A stretch of 49,745 nucleotides of DNA from Candidatus Saccharimonadota bacterium. Its GTDB lineage: Bacteria > Patescibacteriota > Saccharimonadia > Saccharimonadales > Saccharimonadaceae. The position numbers were made by a program, and so were the translations under genes. Positions 32,988 through 42,161 of this stretch are shown here, piece by piece. Below the pieces are notes generated by a model. The model searched no databases. It saw only the letters and a list, made by a program, of their open reading frames with translations, and was not told where the DNA came from. How positions within the stretch are numbered: the first letter of the stretch is position 1; each line of letters opens with the position of its first letter. The DNA is taken from NCBI GenBank assembly GCA_027492255.1, contig JAPUFB010000006.1, positions 1 through 49,745 on the forward strand, given 5' to 3'.

Positions 32988-33347
32988 GTTAGAGTGCTGA
33001 ACGATCGCCCGTTCTAATAAGATGCGGGAGGAAAGTCCGGGCAGCATAGAACATTGACAGTTGCTAACGGCAACCGGGGGTGACCCTAGGGAAAGTGCCA
33101 CAGAAACAAAACCACTGATGCGCCTAGCGCAAAAGTAAGGGTGAAACGCGCGGTGTAAGAGACCGTAGTTCTGTACGGTGACGCACAGGAGAGGTAAACC
33201 CTGTCTGCTGCAAGGCGGTTCATGACTTTCGTTAAGAGAGGGCTGTTCGCTACCTCATGAACCATTTAAGCCGCTTGATCCTGCTGGCAACAGCAGGACT
33301 AGATAGATGATCGTTCTCGACGGAACCCGGCTTACAGGTGCTCTAAC
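32988..33347 (+). ncRNA. rnpB: RNase P RNA (class A)
   Basis: The ribozyme that matures tRNA 5' ends. Diagnostic parts are GAGGAAAGTCCGGGC near the 5' end, ACAGAAA in the conserved core, AGTAAGGGTGAAACG, GGTAAACCC, and the closing pairing of GTTAGAG (32988-32994) with CTCTAAC at the 3' end (33341-33347). A perfect TATAAT lies at 32976-32981. It is followed at once by a terminator. Confidence 0.95.
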
Positions 33348-33350
33348 AAC

Positions 33351-34531: not shown

Positions 34532-36037
34532 TTACGCGCTTTTCTGTCGGTATTGAAGTGCCTCTGCTATATGTTCAGTCAAGATAGCATCTTTTCCCTC
34601 AAGATCTGCGATTGTTCGGGCAACTTTTATCACCTTGAAATAACTGCGAGCAGAAAGTTTTAATTTTTCGGCTGCGCTGTTAAGAAACTCAGCTGCAGCA
34701 GTGTCGAGAAGGGTACTTTTAGCAATATTCTTACTCGAGAGTTCAGCGTTGGTGCGTGATCGATTGCGGATATACTGGCGCGTGCGTGCAGCGGTAACTT
34801 GTTGGCGTGCTAACGGGCTTTCTGGTTGTTTTGATTCGTACGATAGTAAATCCTTCTCGGGAACGCGTGCCACCGAAAGAACCATATCTATTCTATCGAG
34901 CAATGGACCGGATATTCGTTTTTGGTACGCTAGTATTTGGTTCATACCACAACTACATTCGTGGCTTGGATCGCCATAATACCCGCAAGGACAGGGGTTT
35001 CTAGTCGCGACAAGCATGAAGCTGGCCGGGAACTGTACCTTACTGGCAGCACGAGCAACATGGATGACTCGGTCCTCGAGCGGTTGTCGTAGTGCTTCGA
35101 GTGATGCTCTCGGGTATTCCGGTAACTCATCTAAGAAGAGGACGCCGTTATGAGCAAGACTAATCTCTCCCGGCATAGGTTTAGTGCCGCCACCGATGAG
35201 CGAGATAGCGCTTGAGGTGTGATGGGGTGAGCGGAATGGTCGCGTCGTGACAATCGTATCGGTAATTTCACCAACAAGGCTATGGAGTTTTGTGATAGCA
35301 ATCTGCTCCTCGTACGTTGGCGCGGGCAAGATAGAAGGTAATGTGCGGGCCAACATTGTCTTACCTGATCCTGGAGGACCATCAAAAAGGATATTATGAC
35401 CTCCGGCTGCAGCAATAATAAGCGCGCGTTTTGCTTGCTCTTGCCCCTTAATGTCGGCAATATCTGTAGTGTAATTTGCTTCTACTGTATCCGCTTGAAG
35501 ATCTCGTTCATAAGAACTGAGCTTTTTCTCACCAATTAGATGTAGATACACATCAACAAGCGAATGCACACCTATAACATCGATATCTTTGACGAGCGCG
35601 GCTTGAGCTGCATTTTTCTCGGGAACAATAAGGGTTGAGTAGCCCGCTTCACGGGCAGTTTCGGCGATATTTATCACCCCGCGGATTGGTTTTAGGCTGC
35701 CATCCAGGCTTAATTCTCCAGCACATAAGACGTTCTTGAGTGACTTCTGAGATAGTTTGCCGCTTGCGATGAGAATTGAGAGCGCTATTGGTACATCAAA
35801 GTGCGAACCGTCTTTCGGGATATTAGCGGGTGCGAGATTAATCGTTATCTTGTGAGAGGGGAATTCAAGATGAGAATTGTTAATAGCGGAGCGGACACGG
35901 TCTCTTGCTTCGTCGATCGCTTTATTACCAAGACCAACTATTGAAAAAGCGGGCAGACCTCGATTAATATCGCATTCAATCTCAATAATGTGACCTTCGA
36001 AACCAACCGTCGTGGCAGAAATTACCTTGGCTGTCAT
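34532..36037 (-). CDS. comM: ComM/YifB-family Mg-chelatase-like AAA+ ATPase
   Basis: The 501-residue protein has an N-terminal Lon-protease-like S5 domain (TTVGFEGHIIEIECDINRGLPAFSIVGL), then an AAA+ core with Walker A FDGPPGSGKTMLA, Walker B VLFLDELPE, and a C-terminal lid carrying the cysteine-rich CPCGYYGDPSHECSCG. ComM is a branch-migration helicase that helps natural transformation in Vibrio. With retractile pili in the same window a DNA-uptake link is plausible. The ATG at 36037 gives the usual MTAKVISA start and lies 11 nt after a TATACT box (36049-36054); a longer frame adds unrelated residues. Confidence 0.93.
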   Translation of the reverse strand: MTAKVISATTVGFEGHIIEIECDINRGLPAFSIVGLGNKAIDEARDRVRSAINNSHLEFPSHKITINLAPANIPKDGSHFDVPIALSILIASGKLSQKSLKNVLCAGELSLDGSLKPIRGVINIAETAREAGYSTLIVPEKNAAQAALVKDIDVIGVHSLVDVYLHLIGEKKLSSYERDLQADTVEANYTTDIADIKGQEQAKRALIIAAAGGHNILFDGPPGSGKTMLARTLPSILPAPTYEEQIAITKLHSLVGEITDTIVTTRPFRSPHHTSSAISLIGGGTKPMPGEISLAHNGVLFLDELPEYPRASLEALRQPLEDRVIHVARAASKVQFPASFMLVATRNPCPCGYYGDPSHECSCGMNQILAYQKRISGPLLDRIDMVLSVARVPEKDLLSYESKQPESPLARQQVTAARTRQYIRNRSRTNAELSSKNIAKSTLLDTAAAEFLNSAAEKLKLSARSYFKVIKVARTIADLEGKDAILTEHIAEALQYRQKSA

Positions 36038-36064
36038 ATCTAGGGGATAGTATACACGAATAGC

Positions 36065-36093
36065 TAGACTTTTTTGCCATTTTTTGATACAAT
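36065..36093 (+). promoter_or_regulatory. Promoter of tmRNA
   Basis: TAGACT (36065-36070), 17-nt spacer and TACAAT (36088-36093) set a start near 36101, a few nucleotides before the mature 5' end. It lies back to back with the comM promoter. Confidence 0.6.
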
Positions 36094-36104
36094 AACAGAG
36101 GTTG

Positions 36105-36477
36105 GGGGCTGAAATATGCTTTCGACGACTGGACTTTAACAGACTGTTTTGCAAGCCGAACACTGACGTAATCAGTATTTTTAAATGCAAATAAAATTGC
36201 TAACTTCTTCAGGAGCTTGTCTCCTGTTGCAGTACCAGTAGCAGCCTAATCGCTTGCTACCGCTTCAGCACTGATGCCTAATAGGTGTTTGAAGTGTCAT
36301 ATACATATGGCTTGGCGAGTTAGTAGCTGTGAAGCTAATTCGCGACGTACATTCATAGACCGGACGCGTGTATTTTTGTCATTCCCAAGCACGTGGACGT
36401 AAGAAGAATTGACTAAGCTTGTAGACGAACAGTAGGTTACCATTCGGACCCGGGTGCGATACCCGGCAGCTCCACCA
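36105..36477 (+). ncRNA. ssrA: tmRNA (SsrA)
   Basis: tmRNA rescues stalled ribosomes and adds a degradation tag. The tRNA-like ends pair (GGGGCTG at 36105-36111 with CAGCTCC at 36467-36473), followed by A and an encoded CCA. The 5' side has the characteristic TTTCGACGACTGGA, and the 3' side the T arm with GGTGCGATACC. The tag frame runs 36187-36249: it begins ANKIANF and ends VPVAA, 20 codons then TAA. The hydrophobic AA end is a normal protease signal. The one-piece form is used (not the split form of some lineages). A terminator follows. Confidence 0.94.
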
Positions 36478-36845: not shown

Positions 36846-37499
36846 ATGAATCACAGAACATTGGAAGCAGCAGAGGTGGTATGGACGTATCTCTGCCTAA
36901 ACCGGACACCAATCGGAGCAGATATGCTACTTGTACTTGGAGGTAGGGATGAGAGGGTTGCACTAGAAGCGGCTCGATTAGCTCAACAGTTTATGTATCG
37001 AGTAGTCATGATTAGCGGGGGGGCGCCGCTACATAATGAGGTTGCACACGCAAAATGGCAAGGACAAACTGAAGCAGATCATTTTTATGAAGTTATGATG
37101 CGAAGTGGATTCGAAGGTGATATATTGCTTGAGCGAACTGCAAACAGCACGGGTGATAACGCGCGTTTGTCTTACGAAATGCTGCGTGAGCAGAAAATAG
37201 CAATGCCAAAAACGTTATTACTCGTCACGAAACCATATATGGAACGACGTGCACTAGCAACATTTGAAGCGCAATGGCCTGATAAAAAAACGCATATTTC
37301 TGTGACATCTCCACGAATTTCTTTTCTAAAATATGCGAACAGTGATCAGCCGCTTGAAGATGTATTAAATATTATGGTGGGCGATTTTCAAAGGATCATT
37401 GAATATCCAAAAATGGGTTGGCAGAGCAAGCAGCTTGTACCAGAAGCGTACAGACTGCCTGGAAAATTCTGGTTGAAGCAGGGTATACACAGCGTCTAA
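36846..37499 (+). CDS. YdcF/SanA-like DUF218 domain protein, second copy
   Basis: This 217-residue cytoplasmic protein has MLLVLGGRDERVALEAARLAQ, RVVMISGGAPLHNE, ILLERTANSTGDNARLSYEML (the conserved E..S..T..N segment) and LLLVTKPYMERRALATFEAQWP, all characteristic of YdcF-type DUF218 proteins. It is distinct in sequence from the copy at 21201-21791. No membrane anchor is present. The ATG lies 6 nt after a TAGAAT box, suggesting a leaderless mRNA. The role is unknown, though E. coli YdcF binds S-adenosylmethionine. Confidence 0.85.
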   Translation: MNHRTLEAAEVVWTYLCLNRTPIGADMLLVLGGRDERVALEAARLAQQFMYRVVMISGGAPLHNEVAHAKWQGQTEADHFYEVMMRSGFEGDILLERTANSTGDNARLSYEMLREQKIAMPKTLLLVTKPYMERRALATFEAQWPDKKTHISVTSPRISFLKYANSDQPLEDVLNIMVGDFQRIIEYPKMGWQSKQLVPEAYRLPGKFWLKQGIHSV

Positions 37500-37644
37500 T
37501 CTCAAGCTAATGATCGATTCGATGAAACATTTAAGGTAATATATACAACATATTATTCTATACTCTAACCTAGTGAATATAAGTACGAACAGGTTAAAAT
37601 ATTATATATAGTAAAAAATTACAACATTTTATCAATTTAAAATA

Positions 37645-37673
37645 TTGACCTATGAAGGCGCTTGTGCTATAAA
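37645..37673 (+). promoter_or_regulatory. Promoter of the 350-nt structured RNA
   Basis: TTGACC (37645-37650), 17-nt spacer and TATAAA (37668-37673), in a very AT-rich stretch (37500-37680) without coding potential. Expected start near 37680. Confidence 0.75.
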
Positions 37674-37679
37674 AGAACT

Positions 37680-38031
37680 AAGCTTTTGTAAAAATAAAAA
37701 TCAAAAATAAATATTTATAAAGGCCTAGAACCTTCCATCCGCTTGGTGGTTGAAAGGCAACCAAATGTTAGTTCAAAAACAAAAAGTTGCCAACAACTAC
37801 CAAACAAAATGCGTACGAGCAATGAACTAGTAGCAATCTTCGCTATAAGGGAGCTCCGCATACAATGATATGCCCGCCTTACTAAAGGCGAGCGGTCAGT
37901 CGCCTCGAGCGACAGACCCTGGTATTTTGTGACACGCGCCCGATATTTATATTTTGTTGGCGGATGTCGTCACTCTGTACCGCCGTTGGTTTGTCGCTCA
38001 GGCATCCTTTACGATCTTCGTAGAGGGTTTT
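37680..38031 (+). ncRNA. Unrecognised structured non-coding RNA, about 350 nt
   Basis: No ORF of note covers this 549-nt gap, yet it has a good promoter, many stems and a terminator. After an A-rich 5' tail come GGTTG/CAACC (37748-37762), AGTTG/CAACT (37785-37798), GCATA/TATGC (37858-37872), GCCTT/AGGC (37876-37889), and a long hairpin GGTC-GTCGC/GCGAC-GACC (37894-37918). A long-range pairing joins CATCCGC (37736-37742) to GCGGATG (37960-37966), and GGCGG pairs with CCGCC (37959-37984). The structured part is visibly more GC-rich than its flanks, as seen for stable RNAs in AT-rich genomes. It is not tmRNA, RNase P or SRP RNA. I do not recognise the class. It could be cis-acting on the downstream membrane gene, but a terminator and separate -10 box argue for an independent RNA. 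Confidence 0.6.
38006..38031 (+). terminator. Terminator of the structured RNA
   Basis: CCTTTACGA (38006-38014) pairs with TCGTAGAGG (38018-38026), a 9-bp stem with a 3-nt loop, then GTTTT. The T run is short, so some read-through into the next gene is possible. Confidence 0.65.
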
Positions 38032-38048
38032 GAGGTATTATAGAGCTT

Positions 38049-38450
38049 ATGAAGAAACTATTGCATATCGGACTTATTCTGTCGCCACTATTGACGGCTT
38101 TTTTGTTATTAATTTTATTTAATACTACAGATCCTGTGACGATTAGCCCAACAGGTATATTAGCGATCTTCCTTTGCTGGTATTTATTCTGGTCAAGCTT
38201 ATTTTTTGTTGTTTTACATTACGGTGTCAGGTTTTTTAGTCGATTTATTATCGCAAAGAAGAAGGATATCAATAAAAAAGAAGTAATAATAGGGGTTAGG
38301 AAAGCATACTACATCGCGAGCGTTCTAGCTTTTGCACCAGTGATTATTCTTGCGATGCGTTCTTTTTCTCAGTTGAAGTGGACAGATCTTGCTTTGGTTG
38401 GGGTATTTATAGGACTAATGATTTTCTATATTGTGAAACGGGTTGAATAA
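38049..38450 (+). CDS. Small polytopic membrane protein
   Basis: This 133-residue protein has four hydrophobic segments (about 5-25, 33-60, 86-105 and 112-130) and a basic loop (IIAKKKDINKKEVIIGVRKAYY). It resembles the small membrane proteins that CPR genomes carry near VirD4-like ATPases, but I know no named family. A TATTAT box 7 nt before the ATG suggests its own leaderless transcript. It lies upstream of the secretion-like genes on the same strand. Confidence 0.75.
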   Translation: MKKLLHIGLILSPLLTAFLLLILFNTTDPVTISPTGILAIFLCWYLFWSSLFFVVLHYGVRFFSRFIIAKKKDINKKEVIIGVRKAYYIASVLAFAPVIILAMRSFSQLKWTDLALVGVFIGLMIFYIVKRVE

Positions 38451-38490: not shown

Positions 38491-38931
38491 ATGGAACCAC
38501 ATCTACCTACCCCTCAAATTGGGCCTGAGCACTCTCCCGTTATGCCTTCGAAAGTAGGCGAGCAATTTAGAGGTGTAGTTGAAACTAACAGTCAGTCCCG
38601 TGAGCAGCAAGATGCGCAACAGGAATCGCATGAAACGCAGTCAAGTGGTTCGCAGGGAGATCCTGTGTTTACGAGCCCTACTGTAACCCCGCCGCCACTG
38701 CCTGTGATTGATCCCGGTCAGTCAAAAGTTACAGATACGACTATCGTTGACACTCCTGCTGAGGCTGCGGACGAAGACTTGATAGAAAAAGAATGGGTTG
38801 AAAAAGCTAAGAGGGTTGTTAGAGAGACGCGTACAGACCCCTATGCTCAGGAACACGCTGTTAGTAAGCTTCAAGCGGATTATCTCCAGAAACGATACGG
38901 AAAAAGCATTAAGGTTCCAGGTGATAGTTAG
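38491..38931 (+). CDS. Disordered Pro/Gln-rich protein next to VirD4-like gene
   Basis: The first 85 residues of this 146-residue protein are low-complexity (P, T, Q, S, E), probably unfolded. The last 60 are helical and charged (DEDLIEKEWVEKAKRVVRETRTDPYAQEHAVSKLQADYLQKRYGK). That C-terminal segment is the conserved part and probably binds a partner. It ends 14 nt before the VirD4-like ATPase, so it is likely its accessory protein. An extended -10 (TGGTATACT) lies 8 nt before the ATG, again almost leaderless. Confidence 0.75.
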   Translation: MEPHLPTPQIGPEHSPVMPSKVGEQFRGVVETNSQSREQQDAQQESHETQSSGSQGDPVFTSPTVTPPPLPVIDPGQSKVTDTTIVDTPAEAADEDLIEKEWVEKAKRVVRETRTDPYAQEHAVSKLQADYLQKRYGKSIKVPGDS

Positions 38932-38945
38932 GGGAGGATAGTAAA

Positions 38946-41900
38946 GTGCAGATAGCTATCGGCATCCTAACCATCCTCGTCATAGCTGGGATTATTTTAA
39001 GTTTTTTTTACTGGCAATATCGAAAAGTTCTTCGCGAAGCAAAGAACTATGAACGCGGACTAAAGATGGTCCCTCTTAAAATACATCTACCACCAGAGAG
39101 CGATGACATAGAAAGCAACGGGCGCGATCAGAGGGATATTACCGAGGAGACAATCTCTCAAGCACAAACAATGTATAACATTATCGCCAGCACGGCGACG
39201 AAAGGTTTTAAGACTAAGATTTACGGCCAGAGACACCTCTCTTTTGAGATCGTAGCAACCAGAGGAGTTATAGATTATTACGTAGTCGTTCCTATGGCAC
39301 TCCTCGATGTGGTACAGCAAGCTGTTGCTGCTGCATATCCATCGGCACGACTAGAGGAGGTAGAGGAGCATAATATATTTAGTCGCGTAGGAAAAATCAG
39401 TAGCACTATTGGAGGCGAACTAACGCTGAAAAAATCATATGCTTATCCAATTGCAACCTATCAAGAATCGAAACGAGATGCAATGCGAGCAATTCTTAAC
39501 GCACTCGCAGCCGCCAATAAGGATGATGGAATCGGTGTACAGGTATTATTTCGTCCTGCTCCTGAGGGCTGGGTAAAGGCTGGCGTAGCAGAGGCTGTCG
39601 GTATCAGGAAAAATAAAGGGAAATCAACCGGTTTTAGTGGATCTGGGGCAGCGGCTGGATTGTTAGAGGCGCTATGGAAAGCGCCAAGTACCGACGGGAA
39701 GGATAAGAAGCCCGAAGATATGCAGCTAACAACACTGGAGCAGTCAAAAGTAGAGGCGTTAGAGAATAAAACTCAGCACCCTGGCTTTGAAACATTGGTC
39801 CGGATTATTGCTTCGTCAAACACAGCTGCACGTTCACAGGTTTTATTAAAAAACGTTGTAGCTGCATTTTCGTTGTTTGATTCACCAACTTTCAATGGTT
39901 TTAAGTTTTCTGTTTCAAAGAATATTGAACAGTTTGTGACAGCCTTTATCTTTCGATTTTTCCCACAAGAATACAACAAATCTATCTTAAATAGTGTAGA
40001 ACTTGCAACAATATTTCACTTGCCAGATCAAAAAAATATACCGACGTCACAATTACAACGTCAAGCCTCAAAACAAGTTGACGGGCCTCGCCAACTGCTG
40101 AGCGAAGGATTCTTAATGGGGTATAACGTATACCGTGGCGTTAAGAAGGAAATACGACTCGGTACAGTCGATAGACGTCGACATACGTACATTATTGGTC
40201 AAACAGGTACGGGTAAATCTAAGCTTCTTGAAAATCTTGCGTTGCAGGATATGCTTGACGGAAAGGGCTTTGCGTTCGTTGATCCACATGGCGATTCTGC
40301 CGAAGCTTTGCTAGGTATGGTACCGAAGGAACGAGTTGAGGACGTTATTTACTTTAGTCCGGGTGATATGGATAATCCGATCGGACTCAACTTATTTGAG
40401 TTTGATACGCCTGACCAACGAGACTTCTTGGTACAGGAGGCAATAGCGATGCTGTATCGACTTTATGATCCTGGCCATACAGGCATTATTGGTCCAAGGT
40501 ATGAGCATTGGTTCCGCAATGCAGCCCTTACTATAATGAGTGATCCGAACGGAACGAGCTTTATCGATATTCCTCAAGTATTTAATGACAATGATTTTGC
40601 AAAAGAAAAACTGAAGTATGTCACCGATCAGACAGTCCTTGACTTCTGGAATAAAGAGATGGCTCAGACGAGTGACTATCATAAATCTGAAGTGCTTGGC
40701 TGGTTTGTTTCGAAGTTTGGTGCCTTTTTATCGAATGAAATGATGCGAAATATTATTGGTCAGACGAAATCAGGCTTTAATTTGCGTGACATCATGGATA
40801 ATAAAAAGATTCTCCTGGTGAATTTGTCAAAAGGTAAGACTGGTGAACTTAACTCTCAGTTACTTGGTATGATCTTTGTTATGAAATTTCAGGCAGCAGC
40901 TATGGGTAGGGCAGATGTGCCGGAAGATCAGCGCGTAGACTTTACATTGTATGTTGATGAGTTTCAGAATTTTGCAACTGACAGCTTTGAGTCAATTCTT
41001 TCGGAAGCTCGAAAATATCGACTCAATCTTATTCTTGCCAACCAGTTTGTTTCTCAATTGACCGATAAGATTCGTGAGGCGATTATAGGCAATGTTGGTA
41101 CTATTATTTCAGGACGAATCGGTATGACTGATGCAGAGCTCATGGCGAAGAAGTTTACGCCTGTGTTTGACGCCGAGGATCTGACAAAACTTCCAAATTA
41201 TGAAGGCGTTGCGGTTGCTCAGATTAACGGGGTACCGTCGGCTCCATTTAGCATGGCATTTCCGCCAATGCTAGGGCATAGTAATCCTCAGCTCGCAGCG
41301 GCACTAAAACGATTATCAGCAGCTAAATACGGAAGACCTCGCCTAGAGGTTGAGCGTGAAATTTTCAAACGACTGCGTTCTGGCGATGAAGCTCGAGATG
41401 AGAAAAAACGGATTTTCGAAGAAAAATTAAAAACATCAAGTCCTAGCGGTTCAGTATCAGGTAATCCATCTTCAGGCTCATCATTTCTTGATGAATGGCT
41501 AGCAAAAAGAAAGACTGCCCCTAAGGCTACCGTAGCGCCCGCAGGGTTGGATGCAAAATTAGCTTCACCGACCGTAACAAAATCTATCCATACCACAGAA
41601 GCACCAAATACAGCCCATGACTCCCCAGTTAAGATGCAGGAAGTGTCACCATCTGATCTTGTGGATGCATCAACAACTTCGGTATCACCTCTATCTATTC
41701 GATCACAGGCTGTTGATAAACCTACGCCCGAGGATCTTAGTGCGTTAAATAAACTTCCGTTGCCTCCAATAGCGCCTGAAGAGGCTACGACCACTCCAGA
41801 GCCGACCAAGCAGTCTACTAATAACGGTGACGCTAATCTCCACTCTCTTCAGTCACAGGGCATAGGAGACGGTTTAGAGATTAAATATGACGAAACAAAG

Positions 41901-42161
41901 ACGATAAAGGGTCCAACAGTTCAGGACGAAGCAGCAGTTGAGAGCGCCTTGGAAAGCGCCATGAGCCAGCCTACTCTTGAAGCTGTACGACCCGATACAT
42001 TACAGATACAGCGTGCCGCTGCGCAAACCGCTGAGCGTGTCGCTGAGGCTGAAGCTATAGCGCAAGCCGAGAGCGTTGACGAGATATTTATCGATCTTAG
42101 AGGTAACTTGATCCATACAGAAGATGTGAAGGACGATAATTTACAAAATACCCCACTATAA
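38946..42161 (+). CDS. VirD4/TraG-like type IV secretion ATPase, membrane-anchored
   Basis: This 1071-residue protein starts at GTG 38946 with AGGGGAGG upstream. One N-terminal membrane segment (about residues 2-23) is followed by a domain of unknown fold. A HerA/FtsK-type ATPase follows: Walker A GQTGTGKS at 418-425, FVDPHGDSAEALL, Walker B LYVDEFQNF (D671, E672) and the sensor-like LANQFVSQL. The last 250 residues are low-complexity (P, T, S, E, Q), probably disordered. Coupling proteins of this type move DNA or protein through a secretion channel. No VirB4/VirB6/VirB8 partner or relaxase is in the window, so a conjugation element is not supported; an autonomous secretion or envelope role is as likely. 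Confidence 0.85.
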   Translation: MQIAIGILTILVIAGIILSFFYWQYRKVLREAKNYERGLKMVPLKIHLPPESDDIESNGRDQRDITEETISQAQTMYNIIASTATKGFKTKIYGQRHLSFEIVATRGVIDYYVVVPMALLDVVQQAVAAAYPSARLEEVEEHNIFSRVGKISSTIGGELTLKKSYAYPIATYQESKRDAMRAILNALAAANKDDGIGVQVLFRPAPEGWVKAGVAEAVGIRKNKGKSTGFSGSGAAAGLLEALWKAPSTDGKDKKPEDMQLTTLEQSKVEALENKTQHPGFETLVRIIASSNTAARSQVLLKNVVAAFSLFDSPTFNGFKFSVSKNIEQFVTAFIFRFFPQEYNKSILNSVELATIFHLPDQKNIPTSQLQRQASKQVDGPRQLLSEGFLMGYNVYRGVKKEIRLGTVDRRRHTYIIGQTGTGKSKLLENLALQDMLDGKGFAFVDPHGDSAEALLGMVPKERVEDVIYFSPGDMDNPIGLNLFEFDTPDQRDFLVQEAIAMLYRLYDPGHTGIIGPRYEHWFRNAALTIMSDPNGTSFIDIPQVFNDNDFAKEKLKYVTDQTVLDFWNKEMAQTSDYHKSEVLGWFVSKFGAFLSNEMMRNIIGQTKSGFNLRDIMDNKKILLVNLSKGKTGELNSQLLGMIFVMKFQAAAMGRADVPEDQRVDFTLYVDEFQNFATDSFESILSEARKYRLNLILANQFVSQLTDKIREAIIGNVGTIISGRIGMTDAELMAKKFTPVFDAEDLTKLPNYEGVAVAQINGVPSAPFSMAFPPMLGHSNPQLAAALKRLSAAKYGRPRLEVEREIFKRLRSGDEARDEKKRIFEEKLKTSSPSGSVSGNPSSGSSFLDEWLAKRKTAPKATVAPAGLDAKLASPTVTKSIHTTEAPNTAHDSPVKMQEVSPSDLVDASTTSVSPLSIRSQAVDKPTPEDLSALNKLPLPPIAPEEATTTPEPTKQSTNNGDANLHSLQSQGIGDGLEIKYDETKTIKGPTVQDEAAVESALESAMSQPTLEAVRPDTLQIQRAAAQTAERVAEAEAIAQAESVDEIFIDLRGNLIHTEDVKDDNLQNTPL

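Follow-up and report, generated by a model that had tools for sequence, protein, structure and literature searches.

The closest described counterpart of the locus reported here is the OLE RNA of Bacillota with its protein OapA, in which a structured RNA is encoded next to a membrane protein; OapA has four transmembrane helices and a basic cytoplasmic cluster, and ole and oapA are colocalised (PMC12265935). Large conserved structured RNAs without known function are rare, and neither Rfam 15 nor the papers searched yielded one for this lineage. Two other kinds of RNA invite comparison: attenuating leaders and riboswitches, whose location ahead of one operon and in its orientation is conserved, and 6S RNA, a stand-alone bacterial RNA. 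As for the genes that follow the locus, in Patescibacteria type IV secretion systems the genes for VirD4-type coupling proteins mostly lie apart from virB4, and the coupling protein of S. epibionticum is not essential for epibiotic growth (PMC12102498); its identity with the VirD4-like gene described below is unestablished.

The window analysed is a stretch of 49,745 nucleotides from a Candidatus Saccharimonadota bacterium (contig JAPUFB010000006.1), and the features of the locus all lie on its plus strand. Between the ORFs at 36846-37499 (+), a DUF218 gene, and 38049-38450 (+), it contains a 549-nt gap (37500-38048) without any gene. A preliminary description had placed there a structured RNA of unrecognised kind, together with a promoter of its own, a GC jump and a hairpin terminator, and these elements held in the window sequence. 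The G+C content of the gap climbs from about 0.2 to 0.55. The promoter (37645..37673, +) consists of TTGACC (37645-37650), a 17-nt spacer and TATAAA (37668-37673) with an extended -10 TGC, and a 9-bp hairpin followed by UUUU (38006..38031, +) was read by eye and is also found in the MFE fold. This terminator-like hairpin is not listed by a simple terminator scanner, which requires 5 T. With the 5′ end inferred from the -10 box and the 3′ end from the hairpin, the predicted non-coding transcript measures ~352 nt (37680..38031, +). The folding energy of this region is -127.1 kcal/mol versus -85.8 ± 4.5 for shuffled sequences (z = -9.1). TTGTAA/ATTACAAC-like palindromic repeats occur at 37541-37640 and also 5′ of the promoter in many homologues; they are perhaps regulator sites.

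A first homologue search by DNA matched two congeneric genomes, in both at the syntenic gap. When the 133-residue protein encoded downstream (m133) was used as the query, it was found in 81 of 151 genomes, and the sequences 5′ of its homologues carry recognisable common motifs, with the core hairpin/GGUCA motif present in 73 of 79. With R1, a covariance model built on the 3′ core, 74 matches were obtained among 79 sources (E ≤ 1), and a second model (R2) was made from 60 matches. R2 matched 135 of the 295 genomes of the order Saccharimonadales at E ≤ 0.1 and 119 of the 295, representing about 15 families, at E ≤ 1e-4; the latter count is preferred because the E-values are per genome. Outside the order, only weak and unverified R2 matches were obtained (G209, G319, G392), and no match to the RNA was found in the plasmid and phage collections. 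As far as can be seen from sequence alone, the RNA class appears to be specific to Saccharibacteria.

The promoter is conserved with the RNA, since TTGAC-N15-18-TGnTA precedes 93 of 118 homologues versus 1.25 in dinucleotide shuffles. The terminator, which held in the window, is weakly supported across homologues: the enrichment of U-runs 3′ of the core is slight (51/119 homologues, 39 expected in shuffles), so that the 3′ end of the RNA remains uncertain beyond the window. Most homologues have a predicted length of 360-460 nt, and three loci (L100, L163, L164) hold compact forms of about 150 nt or less. Judging from these compact forms, the large 5′ domain is dispensable for the role of the core, whatever that is.

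The conserved core contains a hairpin (GCCCGCC..GGCGAGC, helix 1, 37872..37893, +), supported by covariation in both sequence sets described below, and after it the near-invariant GCGGUCAG (37892..37899, +), identified by motif counts (AGCRGTCA in 109 of 119 homologues versus 0.7 in shuffles). The long 3′ stem that follows (helices 2-6, 37902..38003, +) pairs 37902-37918 with 37988-38003, 37921-37924 with 37978-37981, 37929-37933 with 37969-37973, and 37937-37940 with 37959-37962, and shows two-sided changes at nearly every pair. Over 74 sequences, 32 of the 34 core pairs display two-sided changes, corresponding to 485 cells versus 131 ± 13 in shuffles, and the covariation score reaches 0.466 compared with 0.159 in shuffles and less than 0.1 in slid controls. 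These counts are biased towards the structure, as the alignment of the 74 sequences was fitted to it. In another set, of 70 loci whose genomes overlap in part with those of the first, 31 of 34 core pairs had two-sided changes and the score was 0.440 versus 0.177, and a model-free alignment showed compensation in 16 of 24 predicted pairs.

Two pairings proposed in the preliminary description did not survive this analysis. The complement of the 7-bp CATCCGC/GCGGATG pairing is present in the window, but the pairing failed as structure: 2 of 89 homologues have it, where 0.9 are expected, and its competitor is a covarying helix with 99.6-100% of cells paired. The local GTCGC hairpin failed as well, the GTCGC strand pairing distally in the stem 37902-37918/37988-38003, which covaries along its length.

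Upstream of the core, the MFE fold shows a 5′ A-rich hairpin (AAGCUUUU.. stem, 37682..37724, +); AAGCUUUU and the A-rich loop are common to many homologues, and the 8-mer AAGCTTTT is found in 48 of 97 homologue leaders. The 5′ domain hairpin (37743..37803, +) is built from an outer stem (37743-37752/37794-37803) and an inner GGCAAC (37756-37761)/GUUGCC (37786-37791) helix, and the equivalent X-Y helix covaries in other homologues. Within one large subgroup (41 sequences, plain MAFFT alignment), two-sided changes were observed in 24 of 33 pairs of the 5′ domain, with 161 cells versus 45 ± 7 in shuffles. A bulged helix, GCG-UAC-GAGC (37811-37820)/GCUCCGC (37853-37859), completes the MFE fold of this part (37811..37859, +). 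It shows little covariation because its strands are nearly invariant; GCTCCGC is present in 68 of 119 homologues versus 0.9 in shuffles. Compared by eye, the strand order of this GCUCCGC/GCG-nn-GAGC helix is reversed in many other families (e.g. L029), as if permuted.

Two further structural candidates were not retained. A general long-range CUGACC/GGUCAG helix joining the 5′ part to the core is not claimed: the window lacks it, CTGACC or CTGACT is found in at most 27 of 97 leaders, and the -35 TTGAC confounds the search. The helix looks good by eye in some lineages, and L007 and L079 show compensatory changes in it. The other candidate, a switch with alternative pairing of the GCUCCGCC strand to two partners, suggested by eye in one group, is undecidable, the strands being too invariant.

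Homology, covariation, the conserved promoter and the lack of an Rfam match thus upheld the proposal of a structured RNA that is unrecognised and has a promoter of its own, transcription itself being unshown. Almost certainly, the structured non-coding RNA encoded here belongs to a new class, whose conserved elements are the promoter and the 3′ core and whose 5′ domain varies in size. Neither 37680-38031 nor its homologues match any Rfam 15 family, and permissive thresholds yielded chance matches alone, such as Drosophila rox2 and SNORA38. No description of this RNA was found in the open-access literature searched (preprints and subscription journals were outside the scope), and the main texts of two large RNA discovery surveys do not mention Saccharibacteria.

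Could a diverged housekeeping RNA, such as 6S or SRP RNA, have been missed by Rfam? In favor of this explanation, neither RF00013 (6S) nor RF00169 (SRP RNA) was found in the window genome. We nevertheless regard it as very unlikely and already largely refuted. The Ffh M domain (PF02978) is absent from the window genome, with 14/14 controls positive, and RF00169 exceeded its cut-off in none of 39 genomes (the window genome and 38 relatives). Since the genome has neither Ffh M domain nor SRP RNA, no SRP RNA is expected and the new RNA is not SRP RNA. The new RNA shares with 6S RNA a stand-alone character and a strong promoter but has no RF00013 match, and its multi-helix covarying fold is not a single rod with a central open bubble. 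Two relatives have sub-threshold 6S matches at other positions (L225, G038:C51:16563-16716, 32 bits; L226, G023:C18:22774-22916, 31 bits), and G023 also carries the new RNA by sequence. The tmRNA and RNase P RNA, likewise large, structured and nearby, were identified by Rfam as separate genes in the window (36105-36477 and 32989-33350, respectively), together with tRNAs; with no Rfam match at the gap, both identities were rejected. The earlier statement that the RNA is not tmRNA, 6S, RNase P or SRP RNA thus held by Rfam, separate genes and architecture. As separate observations, L225 and L226 are possible diverged 6S RNAs of Saccharibacteria, and the signal recognition particle is apparently lost or unrecognisable in the group examined.

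The new RNA is encoded just upstream of m133 wherever checked. The m133 gene (38049..38450, +) encodes a conserved 133-aa membrane protein predicted as four confident helices (pLDDT 92.9), with a basic central loop of mean net charge +3.7. Positive cytoplasmic loops are frequent in membrane proteins. No Pfam family and no detectable fold relative in the PDB were found for m133. It is followed by a gene for a conserved 146-aa protein (p146, 38491..38931, +), recognised as an ORF with conserved synteny, and by a VirD4/TraD-like coupling ATPase gene (38946..42161, +), supported by protein match and synteny. Among 75 loci fetched via the VirD4-like protein, 70 carry the RNA, in every case in the same orientation and for the most part some 1 kb upstream. 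Conversely, 20 of 20 hits picked by the RNA model alone, in genomes of other families and including two with E near 1e-3 or 1e-4, lie upstream of p146 and VirD4-like genes on the same strand. At locus L220, where three ORFs intervene between m133 and p146-VirD4, the RNA remains adjoining m133; in our reading of L193, L199 and L204, neither the RNA nor m133 precedes VirD4. The relevant downstream neighbour is the small membrane protein and not the secretion ATPase. The preliminary description had stressed a position before surface and secretion genes, which held in part: a VirD4-like gene does lie downstream, but it is the small membrane protein that matters. It had also proposed searching relatives for homologous gaps near the VirD4-like gene, examining covariation and comparing with Rfam; such gaps and covariation were found, and the Rfam comparison was negative.

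This arrangement could also be that of a cis-regulatory leader, a riboswitch or attenuator of the m133-p146-VirD4 operon, in which the long 3′ stem and U-run would terminate transcription unless a ligand or protein permits read-through. We consider this explanation possible. The strict co-oriented synteny throughout the order meets the conserved position upstream of the same gene seen in such leaders, T-rich sequence comes after the 3′ stem in some homologues and a terminator-like hairpin in the window, and GCUCCGCC strands could, by eye, choose between two partners in some members of the family. Against it, TATTAT, the -10 box of the m133 gene (38036..38041, +), lies 7 nt 5′ of the ATG, and a -10 box (at least 5/6) is located 4-11 nt before the m133 start codon in 66% of homologous loci versus 8.5% in shuffles. 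Given this box near the start codon, the RNA is probably not the leader of the m133 mRNA, although the argument is in silico only; the position of the box suggests a separate, nearly leaderless m133 mRNA. Moreover, insertions of about 200-700 nt between the RNA and m133 are tolerated (L194, L062, L064, L073), the terminator signal across homologues is weak, unlike that of attenuating leaders, and the RNA exceeds the typical riboswitch size. Palindromic, MITE-like insertions between the RNA and the m133 gene were noted in L194 (3200-3750, about 550 nt) and in L062 (after 1544).

A third explanation is a trans-acting base-pairing RNA, whose single-stranded CACCUU/ACCUUAACAAUU would bind the Shine-Dalgarno-like AAGGUG of target mRNAs. 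These motifs, found in homologue 5′ regions (e.g. L029, L049), are conserved and apparently unpaired. Their enrichment (GCACCTT-type motifs in 63 of 119 homologues versus 2.5 in shuffles) and the independent promoter support this explanation. However, about half of the homologues lack the motif, and antisense sRNAs rarely show such strict synteny or so elaborate a covarying structure; we consider this explanation unlikely.

Our preferred reading, in which the RNA acts with m133 as OLE does with OapA, rests on analogy, and we hold it tentatively, at slightly less than an even chance. The RNA would be transcribed independently and assemble with m133 into a ribonucleoprotein at the cytoplasmic membrane. 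In this model, m133 would touch the RNA through its basic loop, and the assembled complex would take part in some membrane process common to the order. We favor this ribonucleoprotein over a leader because the RNA has a fixed partner, the two have separate promoters, and they stay together despite insertions, the cis-regulator remaining a serious rival. Several points weigh against it: there are no binding, localisation or expression data, cytoplasmic positive loops are commonplace, m133 has no detectable PDB fold relative, a cis-regulator would predict the same synteny, small genomes may keep gene order anyway, and the compact forms exist. The four predicted helices and basic loop of m133 recall OapA, but no evidence relates the two proteins, and m133 has no Pfam match. 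The new RNA is also shorter than OLE (about 150-500 nt versus about 600) and belongs to another phylum, and the OLE covariance model gave no match in the window or the homologues even at permissive E.

If confirmed, the ribonucleoprotein would be a possible second case of OLE-OapA type pairing between an RNA and a membrane protein. A bolder version, which we consider unlikely, makes the RNA a structural part of a membrane machine formed by m133, possibly with p146 and the VirD4-like coupling ATPase; if true, an epibiont lineage would possess an RNA-containing envelope or secretion complex. An RNA class that runs through one order, and whose membrane-protein neighbour is fixed, provides a concrete, testable entry into the biology of epibiotic Saccharibacteria.

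The tmRNA, RNase P and new RNA genes all lie within a stretch of about 5 kb in the window. The longest mechanical ORF of a comM-like gene on the opposite strand (34532-36190) overlaps at its 5′ end with the tmRNA gene (36105-36477); the true start of the comM-like gene is likely further downstream.
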